A DNA stretch of 64,000 nt from Hyphomicrobiales bacterium (GCA_002400845.2 NVRK02000095.1:1-64000); one strand, 5' to 3'; numbered from the stretch's first letter, positions 4,446 to 54,057 are shown. Program-made: numbers and translations. Notes: generated by a model not told the origin, from the letters alone.

Positions 4446-4883
4446 TTATTGAGAAAGCTCTGCAAAAGCTTTTGCGAAGCGTTCTTTAGATTTTTTATTC
4501 TTTTTAGCTTTCATGGCTTTTTCTAAGTTTACGGGCTCTCCTGCAACAATTAATGCTACCATTCCCATTGAGTAGTGCGGAGAGCATTTTATGCCATATA
4601 CACCTTCAGATGTTAGCGTTAGTACGTATTCTTTGTTGAATTTACTTTTGAATTTTTTAAAGCCTTCTGGCAGCATGCCTTTAATAGATTCAGCGTTATG
4701 ACCTTTGTTTTCTGGAATGAATTTTACGGTATCTCCGACGGCGGCTTTAATAAAGCTTGGTTCAAAAACCATGCTTCCTGCTTCACCTTTGTTTAGCATT
4801 TTAATTTCAAACTCTTCAGCAAAAGCTGGACTTGCGATTGTTGTTACTAATGCAACAGTTAATCCAATAATTTGAGAACGCAT
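4446..4883 (-). CDS. pseudoazurin (blue copper protein)
   Basis: Signal peptide plus EFEIKMLNKGEAGSMVFEPSFIKAAVGDTVKFIPENKGHNAESIKGMLPEG...YGIKCSPHYSMGMVALI; His/Cys/His/Met copper ligands. Confidence 0.95.
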   Translation of the reverse strand: MRSQIIGLTVALVTTIASPAFAEEFEIKMLNKGEAGSMVFEPSFIKAAVGDTVKFIPENKGHNAESIKGMLPEGFKKFKSKFNKEYVLTLTSEGVYGIKCSPHYSMGMVALIVAGEPVNLEKAMKAKKNKKSKERFAKAFAELSQ

Positions 4884-4945
4884 GGTATTTCCTTCTTTGT
4901 GGTATTAAGGTTATTTGACATATACTTTAATTCACCAATCGCTAA

Positions 4946-4959
4946 TTGCGATTTCGCAA
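4946..4959. promoter_or_regulatory. FNR/NNR-type box TTGCG-ATTT-CGCAA
   Basis: Perfect inverted half-sites with 4-nt spacer between the divergent pseudoazurin and Crp/Fnr genes. Confidence 0.75.
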
Positions 4960-4965
4960 ATAAGA

Positions 4966-5676
4966 ATGAACAAAATGACATTGCTTGATGTTTCACTGAT
5001 AAAAAATCTAGACCCATTTGTGGGTATGGAAGACACTGCACTACAAGATGTACTCGATTTATCGGATTCTATGCATTACGCAAAAGGTAAAATGATTTTT
5101 CGAGAGGGGGATCAGGCAAAGTGTTTTTATCTGTTACTTGATGGTCATATTAGGGTGGTGAAAACAAGTCCTCATGGAGAGCAAATCATCGCCCGGGTAA
5201 TTTCCAGCGGGGAGTTATTTGGCATCGCTAAGGCATTGCACCGTGATACATATCCTGCTGATGCCGTTGCTGCTGTTGATTGTTTAGTTTTGTGCTGGTC
5301 CAATCGTCATTGGGATAAAATTGTGAATGCGTATCCAAGTTTTGCAAGTAATACTAATAAGACTGTTGGTAAACGTCTTGCAGAAACACAAGCACGTGTG
5401 ATGGAATTAGCAACGGAACGGGTTGAACAGCGTGTCGCAAGTACGATCGTAAAACTTGCGGCACAAACCGGTAAGAAAACGAATGAGGGAATTTTAATTG
5501 ATTTTCCAATATCTAGGCAAGATGTTTCTGAAATGACAGGAACAACGCTTCATACCGTTTCACGTTTGATGAGTGCTTGGGAAAGTAAAGGTTGGGTAAA
5601 AAGTGGGCGCCAAAAAATTACATTGTTAGAAAGCCATAAATTGGCAATGGTTGCCGCAGGGCATGATAAAAATTGA
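4966..5676 (+). CDS. Crp/Fnr family regulator, NnrR/DNR-like (supplied ORF start 4915 probably too early)
   Basis: cNMP-binding fold (MIFREGDQAKCFYLLLDGHIRVVKTSPHGEQIIARVISSGELFG) and Crp HTH (SRQDVSEMTGTTLHTVSRLMSAWESKGWV); no N-terminal Cys cluster; adjacent to nirK. Confidence 0.88.
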   Translation: MNKMTLLDVSLIKNLDPFVGMEDTALQDVLDLSDSMHYAKGKMIFREGDQAKCFYLLLDGHIRVVKTSPHGEQIIARVISSGELFGIAKALHRDTYPADAVAAVDCLVLCWSNRHWDKIVNAYPSFASNTNKTVGKRLAETQARVMELATERVEQRVASTIVKLAAQTGKKTNEGILIDFPISRQDVSEMTGTTLHTVSRLMSAWESKGWVKSGRQKITLLESHKLAMVAAGHDKN

Positions 5677-5695
5677 GAACGTGAGGTTTTAAATT

Positions 5696-5974
5696 TTAGT
5701 CGCTTTTAACAACGCTCGTAATTTGTAACTGCTTAAGCAATTTATATTTATCTAAGCCGTGCTCGTAAGCTGCATCTTTCACGTTATGAAAGGGCGCTAG
5801 AGGGCAACCAATACAATGCATATTGTTGTGTTGTAATACTTTTATGACCCAAAAATTCTCAGACATAATAATGTCCATGGTCATATCCATCGTAATATTA
5901 TGGCCTACATTTTTGGGTGCAGTCAGCGTTAATGGAAATTTGTTCCCAGCGGTTTTTTTAATATTTTTCATCAT
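5696..5974 (-). CDS. DUF1858 domain-containing protein
   Basis: TMDIIMSENFWVIKVLQHNNMHCIGCPLAPFHNVKDAAYEHGLD resembles the DUF1858 CxGC module. Confidence 0.75.
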   Translation of the reverse strand: MMKNIKKTAGNKFPLTLTAPKNVGHNITMDMTMDIIMSENFWVIKVLQHNNMHCIGCPLAPFHNVKDAAYEHGLDKYKLLKQLQITSVVKSD

Positions 5975-6017
5975 AGCTCCAAACCCCCATTATTACTAAA
6001 AGTTAGGCTAGAGTTCT

Positions 6018-6031
6018 TTGCATTTGTGCAA
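6018..6031. promoter_or_regulatory. FNR/NNR-type box TTGCA-TTTG-TGCAA upstream of nirK
   Basis: Inverted half-sites with 4-nt spacer, 144 bp before the nirK ATG. Confidence 0.75.
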
Positions 6032-6161
6032 ATAAGTTTTTGATATATATGCTTTTTGTTTGCCATTGCTCAAAGAGGCGCGTGATTTAGCTTGGTAGTT
6101 TCATCTTATCGACAAACATAAGTACCGACAAAAAGTTGGCCAAGTCGATAAGGAGACAAAA

Positions 6162-7313
6162 ATGATGAATCGTAGAAACGCACTAAAAAGTGCAATTTTT
6201 GCTACTATGGCGGTGCCTGCTTTAATTCAAAAAGCTTCAGCAGAAGAAGCATTTACACCCGTGGCTGAAAAGGTGGATCTGTCTAAATTTAAACGTAAAA
6301 AAATTGAATTGGTTAAACCTCCATTTGTGCATGAGCATGACCAAGTGGCCAAAGGTGCGCCAAGTGTTGTTGAGTTTGAAATGACAATTGTAGAAAAAGA
6401 AATGGAAATTGATGATGAAGGAACAATGCTGCAAGCTATGACTTTTGACGGTTCTGTTCCCGGCCCATTAATGGTTGTGCATGAATGTGATTATGTTGAA
6501 CTGACATTAATCAATCCAGAATCAAATTCAATGCCACACAACATCGATTTTCACGCTGCAACAGGTGGCCTTGGTGGTGGTGCATTAACATTGGTCAACC
6601 CTGGAGAACTCACCGTACTTCGTTTTAAAGCGACACGCCCTGGTACTTTTGTTTATCACTGTGCACCTGGTGGCCCAATGATCCCATGGCACGTTGTGTC
6701 TGGAATGAGTGGTGCCATTATGATCTTGCCACGTGACGGTTTGAAAGACCCAGAAGGTAAATCTGTAAAATATGATACTGTGTTTTATATTGGCGAAAAC
6801 GACTTATACATCCCTAAGGATGAAGACGGCGAATATAAACGCTATGAAAGTCCGGGTGATTCATATTCAGATACTGTTGAAGTAATGAATGGACTTATAC
6901 CTAGCCATGTTGTGTTTAATGGCAAAGTTGGTGCGCTAACTGGTGACAATGCTTTAAAATCTAAAGTTGGTGAGACTGTTTTATTTATTCACTCACAAGC
7001 AAACAGAGATACTCGACCCCACCTCATTGGTGGTCATGGCGATCTGGTTTGGGAAACAGGTAAATTTAACAATCCACCAGAGCGTGATTTGGAAACTTGG
7101 TTTATTAGAGGTGGTTCGGCTGGTGCAGCATTGTATCGGTTCCGCCAACCTGGTGTGTATGCCTATGTAAACCACAATTTGATCGAGGCCGTTAACTTGG
7201 GCGCAACCGCACACGTGGTTGTCGAAGGTGAATGGAACAATGATCTTATGGAGCAAGTAAAAGCACCAATTGCTTTTGGGCAGAGTTATTTAGGTAAAAA
7301 AGCGCTTCCTTAA
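6162..7313 (+). CDS. nirK: copper-containing nitrite reductase
   Basis: Tat-like leader [75 protein letters not shown] and [13 protein letters not shown] copper/active-site motifs. Confidence 0.98.
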
Positions 7314-7338
7314 TCCTAAGTGTTTGATTTTGGAAATA

Positions 7339-7364
7339 TTCCCGGCATATTTTATTGTCGGGAA
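7339..7364 (+). terminator. hairpin in the nirK-nirV intergenic region (attenuator or mRNA-stabilising)
   Basis: TTCCCG-N14-CGGGAA, no strong T-tract. Confidence 0.45.
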
Positions 7365-7385
7365 CTTGCTTAATTGAGGTCTCAA

Positions 7386-8246
7386 ATGAAAATAAGTTAT
7401 TTATTCTTTGTTATTGGTATCATTTTTATTGGAGTGACTACAAAAGTAGCCTTTGAATCAAATTTAGACGTGCTAAAATTAGATAGTTTAGAAATGGTTT
7501 TGGTTCCTGGTGGATCGTTTATGTATCGTCAATCTGGCGAATATCTAAAAGATGATTTTCCCATTGATGCGCCACTTACAAAAGTGAAATTTGAGAAATT
7601 TCTTGAGATTATGAAATATCAAGTTTCAGTTGGGGATTATGAAAAGTGCGTAAGTGATGGGAAATGCGAACCCCGAAAATGGCAGGGTAAGCAAGATGAA
7701 AAATTACCTGCGACTGGTATTAGCTTTAATAACGCATTGTCATATGCACAATGGTTGACCAAAAATTCTGATTACGTTTGGCGTTTGCCCACCGATCAAG
7801 AATGGTCTTATGTGGCTGGAAGTAAATATGTCGATGATGCGTTGAAATCTGACAAAGTTAATTTAAGCATTTCTGATCGCTGGTTAGAAAAATATCAAAA
7901 ATACGCTGAGTTTAATTTCAGCCCGGTTGGGAAAGTTTCAATACGGGGTTTTTTTGGTGCAAATGAAAATGGGATATATGATTTGTCTGGTAATATTTGG
8001 GAATGGACCAGTGATTGCTATAACCGTACCCGATTGAATGCGAGCGGTATTGAATTAAACACGACAAATAATTGCGGTGTGCGCATTAGTGCAGGGAGCC
8101 ACCGTGCTTACATTAGCAGTTTTATTCAAGACGCACGTGGGGGTGGATGTTCTGTTGGTGCACCGCCAAGCTATTTAGGTTTTCGTTTGATTAAAGATGG
8201 AAAACGAGATGTGATCTCTCGTTTTTTAGACTTAACCAGACTTTAG
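7386..8246 (+). CDS. nirV: formylglycine-generating enzyme (SUMF1)-family protein, NirV-like
   Basis: LEMVLVPGGSFMYRQSGE...YQVSVGDYEKCVSDGKC...WRLPTDQEWSYVAG...GNIWEWTSDCY...RISAGSHRAY...YLGFRLIK; directly downstream of nirK. Confidence 0.85.
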   Translation: MKISYLFFVIGIIFIGVTTKVAFESNLDVLKLDSLEMVLVPGGSFMYRQSGEYLKDDFPIDAPLTKVKFEKFLEIMKYQVSVGDYEKCVSDGKCEPRKWQGKQDEKLPATGISFNNALSYAQWLTKNSDYVWRLPTDQEWSYVAGSKYVDDALKSDKVNLSISDRWLEKYQKYAEFNFSPVGKVSIRGFFGANENGIYDLSGNIWEWTSDCYNRTRLNASGIELNTTNNCGVRISAGSHRAYISSFIQDARGGGCSVGAPPSYLGFRLIKDGKRDVISRFLDLTRL

Positions 8247-50648: not shown

Positions 50649-50759
50649 GGTAGAGCACATATATAAATATATATTGGTGCCCGGCATGATGCCGAATCTA
50701 TCTTACTGGTTAATCCAGTTTGTCCCCTATTATTGATTAAAATTTACAAGGGACGTTTC
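50649..50759 (+). promoter_or_regulatory. structured 5' leader of flagellin 1 (flg-Rhizobiales-like RNA element)
   Basis: GGTAGAG; variable AT stem CAC...GTG; GGCATGATGCC hairpin; ACTGG-TTAAT-CCAGT hairpin; GTCCC (50722-50726) complementary to SD GGGAC (50750-50754). Confidence 0.85.
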
Positions 50760-51725
50760 ATGTCTAGTATTAATACAAACGCATCTGCGATGACTGCTCT
50801 GCAATCATTGAATATGACAAACAAAAGAATGGATTCTGTACAGAATGCCATTTCAACTGGCCTAAGTGTAGGTTCTGCTAAAGACAACGCAGCTTATTGG
50901 TCGATCGCTACCGAAATGCGTTCTGACAATAAAGCACTTGGCACTGTTAAAGATGCTTTGGGCCTTGGTGCTGCTAAGATTGATACTGCTTCAACTGGTT
51001 TGAATGCAGCAATTGACGTAGCAGACGAAATTAAATCCAAATTGGTAGCTGCGCGTGAGCCTGGTGTGGATCGCGACGCGATCAACACAGAGATCGCAGC
51101 CCTAAAAGAACAATTGATTACAATTGCTTCGTCTTCATCTTTTTCTGGTGAAAACTGGTTGCAAAATGATGAATCTACAGTATCGGGTACTAAATCTATT
51201 GTGGGTTCGTTCAATCGTTCAGCAGCAGGCAATGTATCAGTTTCAACAATCGATATTAATACAACAAATACAACATTGATTGGCACGGACGACGGCGCAT
51301 TCGGCATCTTAACTAAAGACATTGATGCGGACCAATTGCTTGATACACCTACAACTACAGCAGTCAACTATTTCCTACTTGATGCTGGTGATGGCGCTGC
51401 TAATGCAGGAACCGAGATTGAGATCGATGGTTCTACAACTGATACCGCAATTGATCAGATGATTTCAGTAGTTGATGATATTATATCTCAAATGACATCT
51501 GCTGCTTCAGACCTTGGTTCTGCAGGTAAGCGTGTTGATATGCAGAATGATTTTGTTAATAATCTTATGAATTCAATTGAAAAAGGTATTGGCCAATTGG
51601 TTGATGCTGACATGAACGAAGAGTCTGTAAAACTACAAGCTCTACAAGTTCAGCAACAGCTTGGTGTTCAAGCTCTTTCAATTGCAAATGGTTCAGCTCA
51701 AAGTATCCTATCTCTATTCAGATAA
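50760..51725 (+). CDS. flagellin (paralogue 1)
   Basis: SSINTNASAMTALQSLNMTNKRMDSVQNAISTGLSVGSAKDNAAYWSIA; C-terminal LQVQQQLGVQALSIANGSAQSILSLFR. Confidence 0.97.
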   Translation: MSSINTNASAMTALQSLNMTNKRMDSVQNAISTGLSVGSAKDNAAYWSIATEMRSDNKALGTVKDALGLGAAKIDTASTGLNAAIDVADEIKSKLVAAREPGVDRDAINTEIAALKEQLITIASSSSFSGENWLQNDESTVSGTKSIVGSFNRSAAGNVSVSTIDINTTNTTLIGTDDGAFGILTKDIDADQLLDTPTTTAVNYFLLDAGDGAANAGTEIEIDGSTTDTAIDQMISVVDDIISQMTSAASDLGSAGKRVDMQNDFVNNLMNSIEKGIGQLVDADMNEESVKLQALQVQQQLGVQALSIANGSAQSILSLFR

Positions 51726-51745
51726 TACGTTGAGTTAAAAAATTA

Positions 51746-51773
51746 AATTTGGCGCAGTAAAGTGCGCCAAATT
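51746..51773 (+). terminator. inverted-repeat hairpin after flagellin 1
   Basis: AATTTGGCGCA-GTAAAG-TGCGCCAAATT, no T-run. Confidence 0.6.
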
Positions 51774-51782
51774 GACAATTAA

Positions 51783-51884
51783 GGTAGAGTTCTGCGAATT
51801 TGCAGTGCCTGGCATGATGCCTAATCTATCTTACTGGATAATCCAGTTTGTCCCAAGTGTTTAGTTTAAAAGGGACTAAGAAAA
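51783..51884 (+). promoter_or_regulatory. structured 5' leader of flagellin 2
   Basis: GGTAGAG; CTGC...GCAG stem; GGCATGATGCC; ACTGG-ATAAT-CCAGT; GTCCC (51850-51854)/GGGAC (51872-51876). Confidence 0.85.
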
Positions 51885-52865
51885 ATGTCTAGTATCAATA
51901 CAAATGCTTCAGCCATGCAGGCCTTGCAGTCATTGAATATGACAAATAAAAAAATGGACGCTGTCCAAAATGCAATTTCTACAGGTTTGAGCGTTGGTTC
52001 AGCTAAAGATAATGCAGCTTATTGGTCTATCGCTACAGAAATGCGCTCTGACAACAAAGCATTGGGCACTGTTAAAGATGCATTGGGTCTTGGTGCTGCT
52101 AAGGTTGATACGGCTACAACTGGTTTGACTGCTGCAATTGATGTAGCCGACGAAATCAAAACCAAATTGGTTGCGGCTCGTGAGCCTGGTGTAGATCGCG
52201 ATGCTATCAATACAGAAATTACAGCTCTTAAAGAGCAGCTTCTTACCATTGCACAATCGTCATCGTTTTCAGGCGAAAACTGGTTGCAAAATGATGGTGC
52301 TACAGCGGCAACTGATAAATCAATTGTTGGTTCATTCAACCGTTCTGCTGCAGGTAATGTATCTGTCTCAACAATCGATATTACTGTATCAGATATCACG
52401 CTAGTTGGCGCTGATAATGAAAGCTTGGGCATTTTAACAAAAGATTATGATGCCAATCAATTATTGGATACACCTCTTACTGGCGTTGGTGTAGAAAACG
52501 AATTTCGTTTGCTTGATATGGGCACGGGTGCAACCACAGGTGAAGATGGTGCAGTTGTTGGCGTTTCCAGTTCAACATCTGATGCAGATATCGACAGTAT
52601 GATTAGTGTTGTTGATGCAATTATTTCTGACATGACTTCTGCAGCTTCTGGTCTTGGATCAGTCGGCAAACGTGTAGACATGCAATCTGATTTTGTTGAT
52701 AATCTAATGAATTCGATTGAAAAAGGTATTGGCCAATTGGTTGATGCTGACATGAACGAGGAGTCTGTAAAACTACAAGCTCTACAAGTTCAGCAACAGC
52801 TTGGTGTACAAGCTCTTTCAATTGCAAACGGTCAATCTCAGAGTATCCTATCTCTATTTAGATAG
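51885..52865 (+). CDS. flagellin (paralogue 2)
   Basis: Same conserved N/C termini as paralogue 1. Confidence 0.97.
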   Translation: MSSINTNASAMQALQSLNMTNKKMDAVQNAISTGLSVGSAKDNAAYWSIATEMRSDNKALGTVKDALGLGAAKVDTATTGLTAAIDVADEIKTKLVAAREPGVDRDAINTEITALKEQLLTIAQSSSFSGENWLQNDGATAATDKSIVGSFNRSAAGNVSVSTIDITVSDITLVGADNESLGILTKDYDANQLLDTPLTGVGVENEFRLLDMGTGATTGEDGAVVGVSSSTSDADIDSMISVVDAIISDMTSAASGLGSVGKRVDMQSDFVDNLMNSIEKGIGQLVDADMNEESVKLQALQVQQQLGVQALSIANGQSQSILSLFR

Positions 52866-52887
52866 ACTATTGAGTTAAAAAAATAGC

Positions 52888-52911
52888 TTTGGCGCTGTTC
52901 TTTGCGCCAAA
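52888..52911 (+). terminator. inverted-repeat hairpin after flagellin 2
   Basis: TTTGGCGC-TGTTCTTT-GCGCCAAA. Confidence 0.55.
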
Positions 52912-52923
52912 ATTATAACCCAA

Positions 52924-53025
52924 GGTAGAGCCCCGTATTTTCACGGAGCCCGGCATGATGCCAAATCTATCTTACTGGAAAATCCAGTTTGTCCCCAAGT
53001 ATTTAGTTTTTAAGGGACCTTTATA
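52924..53025 (+). promoter_or_regulatory. structured 5' leader of flagellin 3
   Basis: GGTAGAG; CCGT...ACGG stem; GGCATGATGCC; ACTGG-AAAAT-CCAGT; GTCCC (52991-52995)/GGGAC (53014-53018). Confidence 0.85.
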
Positions 53026-53994
53026 ATGTCTAGTATTAATACAAATGCATCCGCTATGACGGCGTTGCAATCATTGAATATGACAAATAAAAAAATGGAC
53101 GCTGTCCAAAATGCGATATCTACTGGCTTGAGTGTTGGCTCAGCAAAAGATAATGCAGCTTATTGGTCTATCGCTACAGAAATGCGCTCAGACAACAAAG
53201 CATTGGGCACTGTTAAAGATGCATTGGGTCTTGGTGCTGCTAAGGTTGATACGGCAACAACTGGTTTGACCGCTGCTATCGAAGTGACTGATGAAATCAA
53301 ATCTAAATTGGTAGCTGCGCGTGAGCCTGGTGTGGATCGTGATGCGATCAACACAGAAATTACAGCTCTTAAAGAACAACTTTCAACAATCGTAGAATCT
53401 TCTTCTTTCTCTGGTGAAAATTGGTTGAGTAACGACAGTGCAACAGCAGCAGCTGATAAATCAATTGTAGGTTCGTTCAATCGTTCTGCATCAGGTAATG
53501 TATCTGTTTCAACAATCGATGTAACTGTATCTGACATCACCCTAATCGGTTCTGACAATGAGAACTTAGGGATTTTAACTAAAACTTATGATGCCGATGC
53601 GTTGAAAGATGCACCTACTGGTACAGCAGACAATTTCAGATTGATTGATGTCGCTGGTCAAACAACAGCTGCCACTGGTACAGTTATTTCTGTTTCAAAT
53701 TCAACTTCTGATGCTGATATCGACAGCATGATTAGTGCTGTTGATGCGATGCTTAGCGATATGACATCGGCTGCTTCTAACCTTGGTTCTGTAGGCAAAC
53801 GTGTAGATATGCAAAGCGATTTTGTTGGTAATCTTATGAATTCTATCGACAAGGGCATTGGCCAATTGGTTGACGCTGATATGAACGAAGAGTCTGTTAA
53901 ATTACAAGCGCTACAAGTTCAACAGCAGCTTGGTATTCAAGCTCTATCAATTGCGAACGGTCAATCACAAAGTATTCTATCTCTATTTAGATAA
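53026..53994 (+). CDS. flagellin (paralogue 3)
   Basis: Same conserved N/C termini as paralogues 1 and 2. Confidence 0.97.
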   Translation: MSSINTNASAMTALQSLNMTNKKMDAVQNAISTGLSVGSAKDNAAYWSIATEMRSDNKALGTVKDALGLGAAKVDTATTGLTAAIEVTDEIKSKLVAAREPGVDRDAINTEITALKEQLSTIVESSSFSGENWLSNDSATAAADKSIVGSFNRSASGNVSVSTIDVTVSDITLIGSDNENLGILTKTYDADALKDAPTGTADNFRLIDVAGQTTAATGTVISVSNSTSDADIDSMISAVDAMLSDMTSAASNLGSVGKRVDMQSDFVGNLMNSIDKGIGQLVDADMNEESVKLQALQVQQQLGIQALSIANGQSQSILSLFR

Positions 53995-54028: not shown

Positions 54029-54057
54029 TGCCGCTAATTTCGATTGGCGGCATTTTT
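54029..54057 (+). terminator. intrinsic terminator of the flagellin array
   Basis: TGCCGCTAAT-TTCG-ATTGGCGGCA then TTTTT; 10-bp stem with UUCG tetraloop and T5 tail. Confidence 0.9.

Follow-up and report, generated by a model that had tools for sequence, protein, structure and literature searches.

A conserved structured leader RNA at flagellin start codons in Rhizobiales, a candidate target of FlbT

The flaA and hag leaders of Campylobacter and Bacillus are controlled by CsrA-FliW. In Alphaproteobacteria, FlbT is long known as a post-transcriptional regulator of flagellin that lacks a defined RNA target and has been reported with opposite signs within the class. The Caulobacter FlbT is described as binding to flagellin 5' UTRs and, together with the flagellin FljJ, as repressing until secretion starts or the hook-basal body is complete, whereas FlbT of Brucella is described as an activator of flagellin (PMC4347634; PMC9812332) and the lateral FlbT of B. 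diazoefficiens as a translational inducer of LafA1/LafA2 (PMC8429497). The mechanism of FlbT was listed as unresolved in a review of 2015. A comparative screen of Agrobacterium intergenic regions, published in 2005, describes five other motifs and makes no mention of flagella (PMC1273637). The leader element analysed below was undescribed in the openly licensed literature searched.

The window, that is, the whole stretch of 64 kb (64,000 nucleotides) analysed from a Hyphomicrobiales bacterium, carries three flagellin genes in series (50649-53025, from the first leader up to the third start codon), each preceded by one structured leader of 103-111 nt. Pfam Flagellin_N/C domains were assigned to all three genes, and all features are on the + strand. 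The leader elements listed in a first-pass annotation of this DNA were all present, one set per gene, including a first stem (P2 below) that changes its sequence but keeps its pairing, as confirmed by the minimum free energy (MFE) folds of ViennaRNA. That annotation described the hairpins correctly and overlooked the helix that closes them. Since GGTAGA pairs with TCTATC, the 5' part of the leader is a three-way junction and not a row of hairpins: helix P1 encloses P2 and P3, followed by P4 and then by P5 at the Shine-Dalgarno (SD) sequence. P3 has the form NGC-AUGAN-GCN with a conserved AUGA loop, P4 in the window leaders is ACUGG-NNAAU-CCAGU, and P5 is the helix of anti-SD GUCCC and SD GGGAC.

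In leader 1, the P1 strands GGUAGA (50649-50654) and UCUAUC (50697-50702) enclose P2, a GCAC...GUGC stem with an inner AU-rich hairpin (50655-50680), and P3, CGGCAUGAUGCCG (50682-50694); they are followed by P4, ACUGG-UUAAU-CCAGU (50705-50719), the anti-SD (50722-50726) and the SD (50750-50754), 5 nt ahead of the ATG of flagellin gene 1 (50760-51725). All these assignments agree with the fold; P1, P2 and P3 are supported in addition by covariation among homologues (P3 also by sequence), P4 by homologue pairing, the anti-SD by the P5 alignment and the SD by its opening energy. P1 is longer by one pair in the other two leaders. Leader 2 consists of P1 (AGGUAGA, 51782-51788; UCUAUCU, 51825-51831), P2 with a CUGCG/UGCAG stem (51789-51808), P3 in the window form GGCAUGAUGCC (51811-51821), P4 (51833-51847), the anti-SD GUCCC (51850-51854) and the SD GGGAC (51872-51876), 8 nt from the ATG of gene 2 (51885-52865). 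Leader 3 has the same order, with P1 (AGGUAGA, 52923-52929; UCUAUCU, 52966-52972), P2 with a CCGU/ACGG stem (52930-52949), P3, again GGCAUGAUGCC (52952-52962), P4 (52974-52988), GUCCC (52991-52995) and GGGAC (53014-53018), 7 nt from the ATG of gene 3 (53026-53994). For leaders 2 and 3, P1 and P2 were assigned from the fold, P3, P4 and the anti-SD from the fold and the window counts, and the SD from the fold and its opening energy. On the + strand of the window, GGCATGATGCC occurs exactly three times (50683, 51811, 52952), as do ACTGG-NNAAT-CCAGT (50705, 51833, 52974) and GTCCC...GGGAC (50722, 51850, 52991), in all cases within the leaders only.

Some further features of the window were noted. 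GC-rich stems follow flagellin genes 1 and 2 (51746-51773 and 52887-52912), with a T tract on the - strand and none on the + strand, so that the three genes may be co-transcribed and then processed; an ordinary terminator (54029-54052) follows gene 3. Weak - strand matches to Rfam families (isrK and others) overlap these stem loops behind the flagellin genes below gathering scores and were discarded as chance. A scan for sigma-70 promoters gave sites no more numerous than in shuffled sequences, and genes 2 and 3 may either possess start sites of their own or be released from a longer transcript. Elsewhere, at 4446-8246, genes for a pseudoazurin-like protein, a Crp/Fnr-like regulator, a NirK-like multicopper protein and an FGE-type protein were recognized by eye from the translations, a likely nitrite-reduction cluster.

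The folding energies of the three leaders are 2.2-3.0 standard deviations below those of dinucleotide shuffles, and the MFE fold of each agrees with the consensus architecture. Within the ensemble, the SD is paired with a probability of 0.93-1.0, and forced opening costs 6-9 kcal/mol at 37 C. The sequestration of the SD proposed in the first-pass annotation is thus thermodynamically dominant in the window leaders, and P5 is conserved, although it is not the conserved core of the element. The same annotation spoke of a switch. The GUCCC/GGGAC pairing indeed prevails, but the folds and opening energies of the window leaders gave no competing ON fold of the leader RNA, and switching would therefore need a factor acting in trans. 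With the SD inside a hairpin, the leader might be an RNA thermometer; the opening cost, however, is 7-10 kcal/mol at 15 C and still 6-8 kcal/mol at 42 C, and no thermometer of Rfam matched, making this extremely unlikely.

For a comparison among homologues, 46 diverse leaders, preselected for a clear P1 helix, served to build a covariance model (R1). In a sequence-only MAFFT alignment of these 46 leaders, 88.5% of the cells in helix columns are paired as against 79.1% after shuffling, with 132 double changes as against 46, and pairing falls below 47% when the partner columns are slid by 1-3 positions. Among 150 model matches, in an alignment fitted to the structure, the corresponding values are 92.0 and 80.1% for pairing and 464 and 137 for double changes. 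Compensation is abundant for the pairs of P1-P4 in this set, P2 included; the P1 column pair 4-120, for instance, is CG in 67, UA in 42, AU in 8 and GC in 8 cases. P4 is paired at 99.8% among 144 homologues, while the AUGAN loop of P3 and its closing C-G pair are nearly invariant. Given the preselection of the 46 leaders for P1, this helix was examined again in a set of 118 non-redundant leaders picked by P3 alone; there, a leader's own strands score 17.2 and swapped strands 14.3 (standard deviation 0.23). The P3 pattern is rightly placed in 207 of 231 distinct flagellin leaders from the named Rhizobiales and the family genomes. Homologous leaders thus show strong covariation for P1-P4, as in a conserved structured cis-regulatory RNA, and modest support for P5. 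Together with the folds below shuffles, this bears out the claim of a structured flagellin leader, and we regard the leader as almost certainly a real conserved RNA element.

Two other readings of the conserved letters can be judged by the same data. The motif sits close upstream of genes, and CtrA motifs have been reported upstream of flaA, flaC and flaD of S. meliloti (PMC3616915), so the inverted repeats could belong to a DNA operator or promoter element and merely resemble RNA helices. The three-way junction, however, is nested, contains G-U pairs and shows compensation specific to its helices; P5 is complementary to the SD, and the MFE folds agree with the structure. Such a DNA element is therefore very improbable. 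The AUG in the P3 loop, on the other hand, might start a regulatory leader peptide, and an open frame MMPNLSYW... is indeed found in the three window leaders. Among 139 leaders, however, the frame relative to the gene is random (43/54/42), and in 64 of them it reaches the gene without a stop; the lengths of the P4 loop are not multiples of 3, and an SD-like tetramer precedes the AUG in 18 of 150 cases. In the lack of a conserved short reading frame, a leader-peptide attenuator was rejected, its probability being close to negligible.

Matches to R1 were detected in 120 of 151 genomes of the family, namely 118 of the 122 that bear flagellin and two of the 29 others, and in 54 of 249 genomes of the order, spread over many families of Rhizobiales. 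Taxa with the element include Rhizobium, Agrobacterium, Shinella, Mesorhizobium, Aurantimonas and Bradyrhizobium-like genomes. The occurrence in triplicate pointed out before holds for the window but is too low a count, since the leader stands before almost all flagellin genes of the family. Outside Rhizobiales, with nine candidates scored per genome, the class-level matches were weak and none preceded a flagellin gene, a result that falls short of proving absence. A flagellin-like open reading frame begins at the modelled ATG in 57 of the 58 best loci; in the remaining one (L209), that ATG opens an apparent degenerate flagellin paralogue (MISPIGSVSAPAML...) behind an intact leader motif.

Searches for the core with the full model (R2) placed P1-P4 also upstream of icpA (protoglobin-MCP) in many Rhizobium-type genomes (L210, L211, L245-L254), where this gene heads che operons at a distance of about 30 kb from the flagellins, and in the leaders of MCP genes elsewhere (L212, L213, L214). 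The start codon of icpA is about 170-370 nt from the motif start in leaders with a readable start. In the window's own genome, a weak candidate of 21 bits (L260; G000:C67:12102-12200) lies directly before an MCP gene. The association with one gene class is consistent, with sites at flagellin starts and further sites at che and MCP genes. The icpA leaders are without UGUCCC/GGGACA, and P5 is mostly missing at che and chemoreceptor genes. As the che leaders keep P1-P4, mostly without P5, the core and P5 are separable modules, and a wider class III regulon that shares the core is likely.

Among 133 leaders with distinct anti-SD/SD combinations, GUCCC follows P4 in 100. The anti-SD/SD score is 15.8 for a leader's own strands, 15.0 for swapped strands (none of 200 swaps as high) and 10.0 after letter shuffling; the conservation of P5 partly reflects that of the SD itself. 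Compensated variants are UGUUCC/GGAACA (L192) and UGCCC/GGGCA (L116), and in the P5 alignment 15 double-changed cells stand against 6.7, a modest covariation. Mesorhizobium-like leaders (UAUGCAAA...GGGUACGAG) show no anti-SD/SD pairing. P5 is therefore a conserved and lineage-dependent module, not a universal one, and its absence from the Mesorhizobium-like and most che leaders indicates that SD release cannot be the sole function of the core. Sequestration of the SD is probably functional in most flagellin leaders. Separately, seven leaders of Mesorhizobium-like and related genomes were found to keep P1-P4 and to have lost the anti-SD (L058, L059, L061, L082, L190, L198 and L207); several of them have a longer P4 (CAUACCGG/CCGGUAUG), and another pairing might be possible at their SD region GGGUACGAGUACC.

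The retention of the core where P5 is lost, and its position far 5' of the start codon in che operons, would also suit a simpler role, in which the core stabilises the 5' end of abundant class III mRNAs (flagellin, che), P5 sets a fixed level of translation and no reader is involved. Flagellin mRNAs need high output, which also speaks for a stabiliser. Yet the near-invariant AUGAN loop and the CCGG/CCGG pairs exceed the needs of a protective stem, and the linkage with one clade of FlbT, described below, is strict. We consider a plain stabiliser unlikely, although it retains some weight.

The first-pass annotation had further suggested possible identity with the flg-Rhizobiales RNA (RF01736), which belongs to the same order and likewise forms several stem-loops near flagellar genes. 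Rfam 15 gave no family at the gathering threshold in the window, and nothing except a tRNA at 15 flagellin loci of Rhizobiales. A cmsearch with the RF01736 model gave no match in the window even at E<10 and none in the window's own genome; with a covariance-model score of at least 55 bits as the cut-off for membership, RF01736 was found in none of 121 family genomes. True members exist in other families of the order. Those examined do not precede flagellin genes, as had been stated, but are found directly ahead of flgF-like rod genes (L133-L150; LDVIANNVANINTTGFK). Their hairpins carry loops of the GGGA type, and the three-hairpin consensus with UUGGGAGA-type loops is absent from the folds of the window leaders. 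In one Bradyrhizobium-like genome (G188), where both RNAs occur, the leader motif lies at 2.76 Mb, far from RF01736 at 6.51 Mb. By model scores, gene context, loops and separate loci, membership in RF01736 is refuted, and the chance that the leader belongs there is practically nil. As an observation on that family itself, clear sub-threshold relatives with repeated GGGGA-type loops precede flgF-like genes in many families of Rhizobiales (L136-L150), and RF01736 as drawn by Rfam looks too narrow.

Several genomes carry two sets of flagellins and two FlbTs. In such dual-system genomes, no match up to E=10 was obtained at 18 flagellin loci of the other system. The marked system was checked at seven loci, every one of which matched, L277 with 35 bits and the others with 63-78 bits. 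Two loci of the window's own genome also score with the model, and three FlgL-like loci gave no motif match. In a tree of FlbT from a Rhizobiales sample, the motif-linked proteins (n=9) are split from the rest (n=11) by one branch with 100/100 support. FlbT is encoded in 53 of the 54 motif-bearing genomes of the order, the exception being an assembly of 86% completeness. The window's genome encodes FlaF and FlbT 1.5-2.3 kb beyond the window end (the FlbT gene at 1.9 kb), after ftcR-like, flgE, flgK and flgL genes. FlbT is thus encoded and co-inherited with the leader, and the nearness of its gene together with the segregation of the motif with one FlbT clade makes a link plausible. Inheritance of the whole flagellar cluster would give the same pattern, so that the link is an association and not a proof. 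FlbT is a candidate reader of the leader, and a fairly good one in our judgement; for its net effect, the balance tips slightly towards activation.

The opposite sign deserves consideration, since the Caulobacter FlbT is described as binding the flagellin 5' UTRs and repressing until the hook-basal body is complete. By analogy, FlbT, alone or with a flagellin as co-repressor, would bind the leader to repress, with P5 assisting. The motif-associated FlbTs form a different clade, however; the Brucella and Bradyrhizobium lateral proteins are described as activators, and the leader RNA already hides its own SD. Repression by FlbT is hence decidedly unlikely here.

The explanation that we favour overall, with somewhat better than even confidence, is a default-OFF leader opened by its cognate FlbT. 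P5 would hold the translation of flagellin low by default, and the P1-P4 core of this cis-acting element of about 105-115 nt would be the recognition site of the cognate lateral or Rhizobium-type FlbT, which may act together with FlaF or flagellin as co-factors. Binding of FlbT may open P5, stabilise the mRNA, or both, and flagellin and other late genes would then be translated once the hook-basal body is ready. Obtained by computation are the structure, its conservation in Rhizobiales, its position at the start codon, its restriction to one of two systems and the reuse of the core at che and chemoreceptor genes. Whether these reflect one Rhizobiales-wide regulon element, a class III core read by its own FlbT clade with P5 as an add-on that sets flagellins OFF, seems to us evenly balanced. 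If so, the activating role of FlbT in Brucella and in the Bradyrhizobium lateral system would be accounted for alongside its repressing role in Caulobacter, because a motif-associated clade that opens a default-OFF leader would reconcile the two signs. The element of about 110 nt supplies a defined candidate target for FlbT, with the second flagellar system of the same cell as an internal control, and its covariance model would annotate class III motility genes, at whose leaders Rfam is at present blank, in a large order of plant symbionts and pathogens.

Compared with known systems, the leader resembles RF01736 as a Rhizobiales cis-regulatory RNA of several hairpins beside flagellar genes, and differs from it in sequence, in structure, in the flgF-like context of the latter and in the lack of a match to its model. 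With the fljK 5' UTR bound by FlbT in Caulobacter, it shares a structured or regulated flagellin leader and the presence of FlbT and FlaF in the same cluster; the Caulobacter-type FlbT represses, while the motif-linked FlbTs of the Rhizobiales sample form a clade apart. As in the flaA and hag leaders under CsrA-FliW, the flagellin SD is bound up in leader structure, with a protein implicated there and a candidate here; the repeated GGA-loop architecture is missing from the present leader, whose motif tracks FlbT. SD-sequestering leaders read by proteins, such as those of ribosomal proteins, likewise combine a conserved three-way junction, hairpins and occlusion of the SD, with a protein ligand suspected in the present case. 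Here the targets are flagellin and chemotaxis genes and the ligand is a candidate; judged against Rfam 15 and the openly licensed literature, the element is apparently a new RNA family among the structured cis-regulatory leaders of mRNA.
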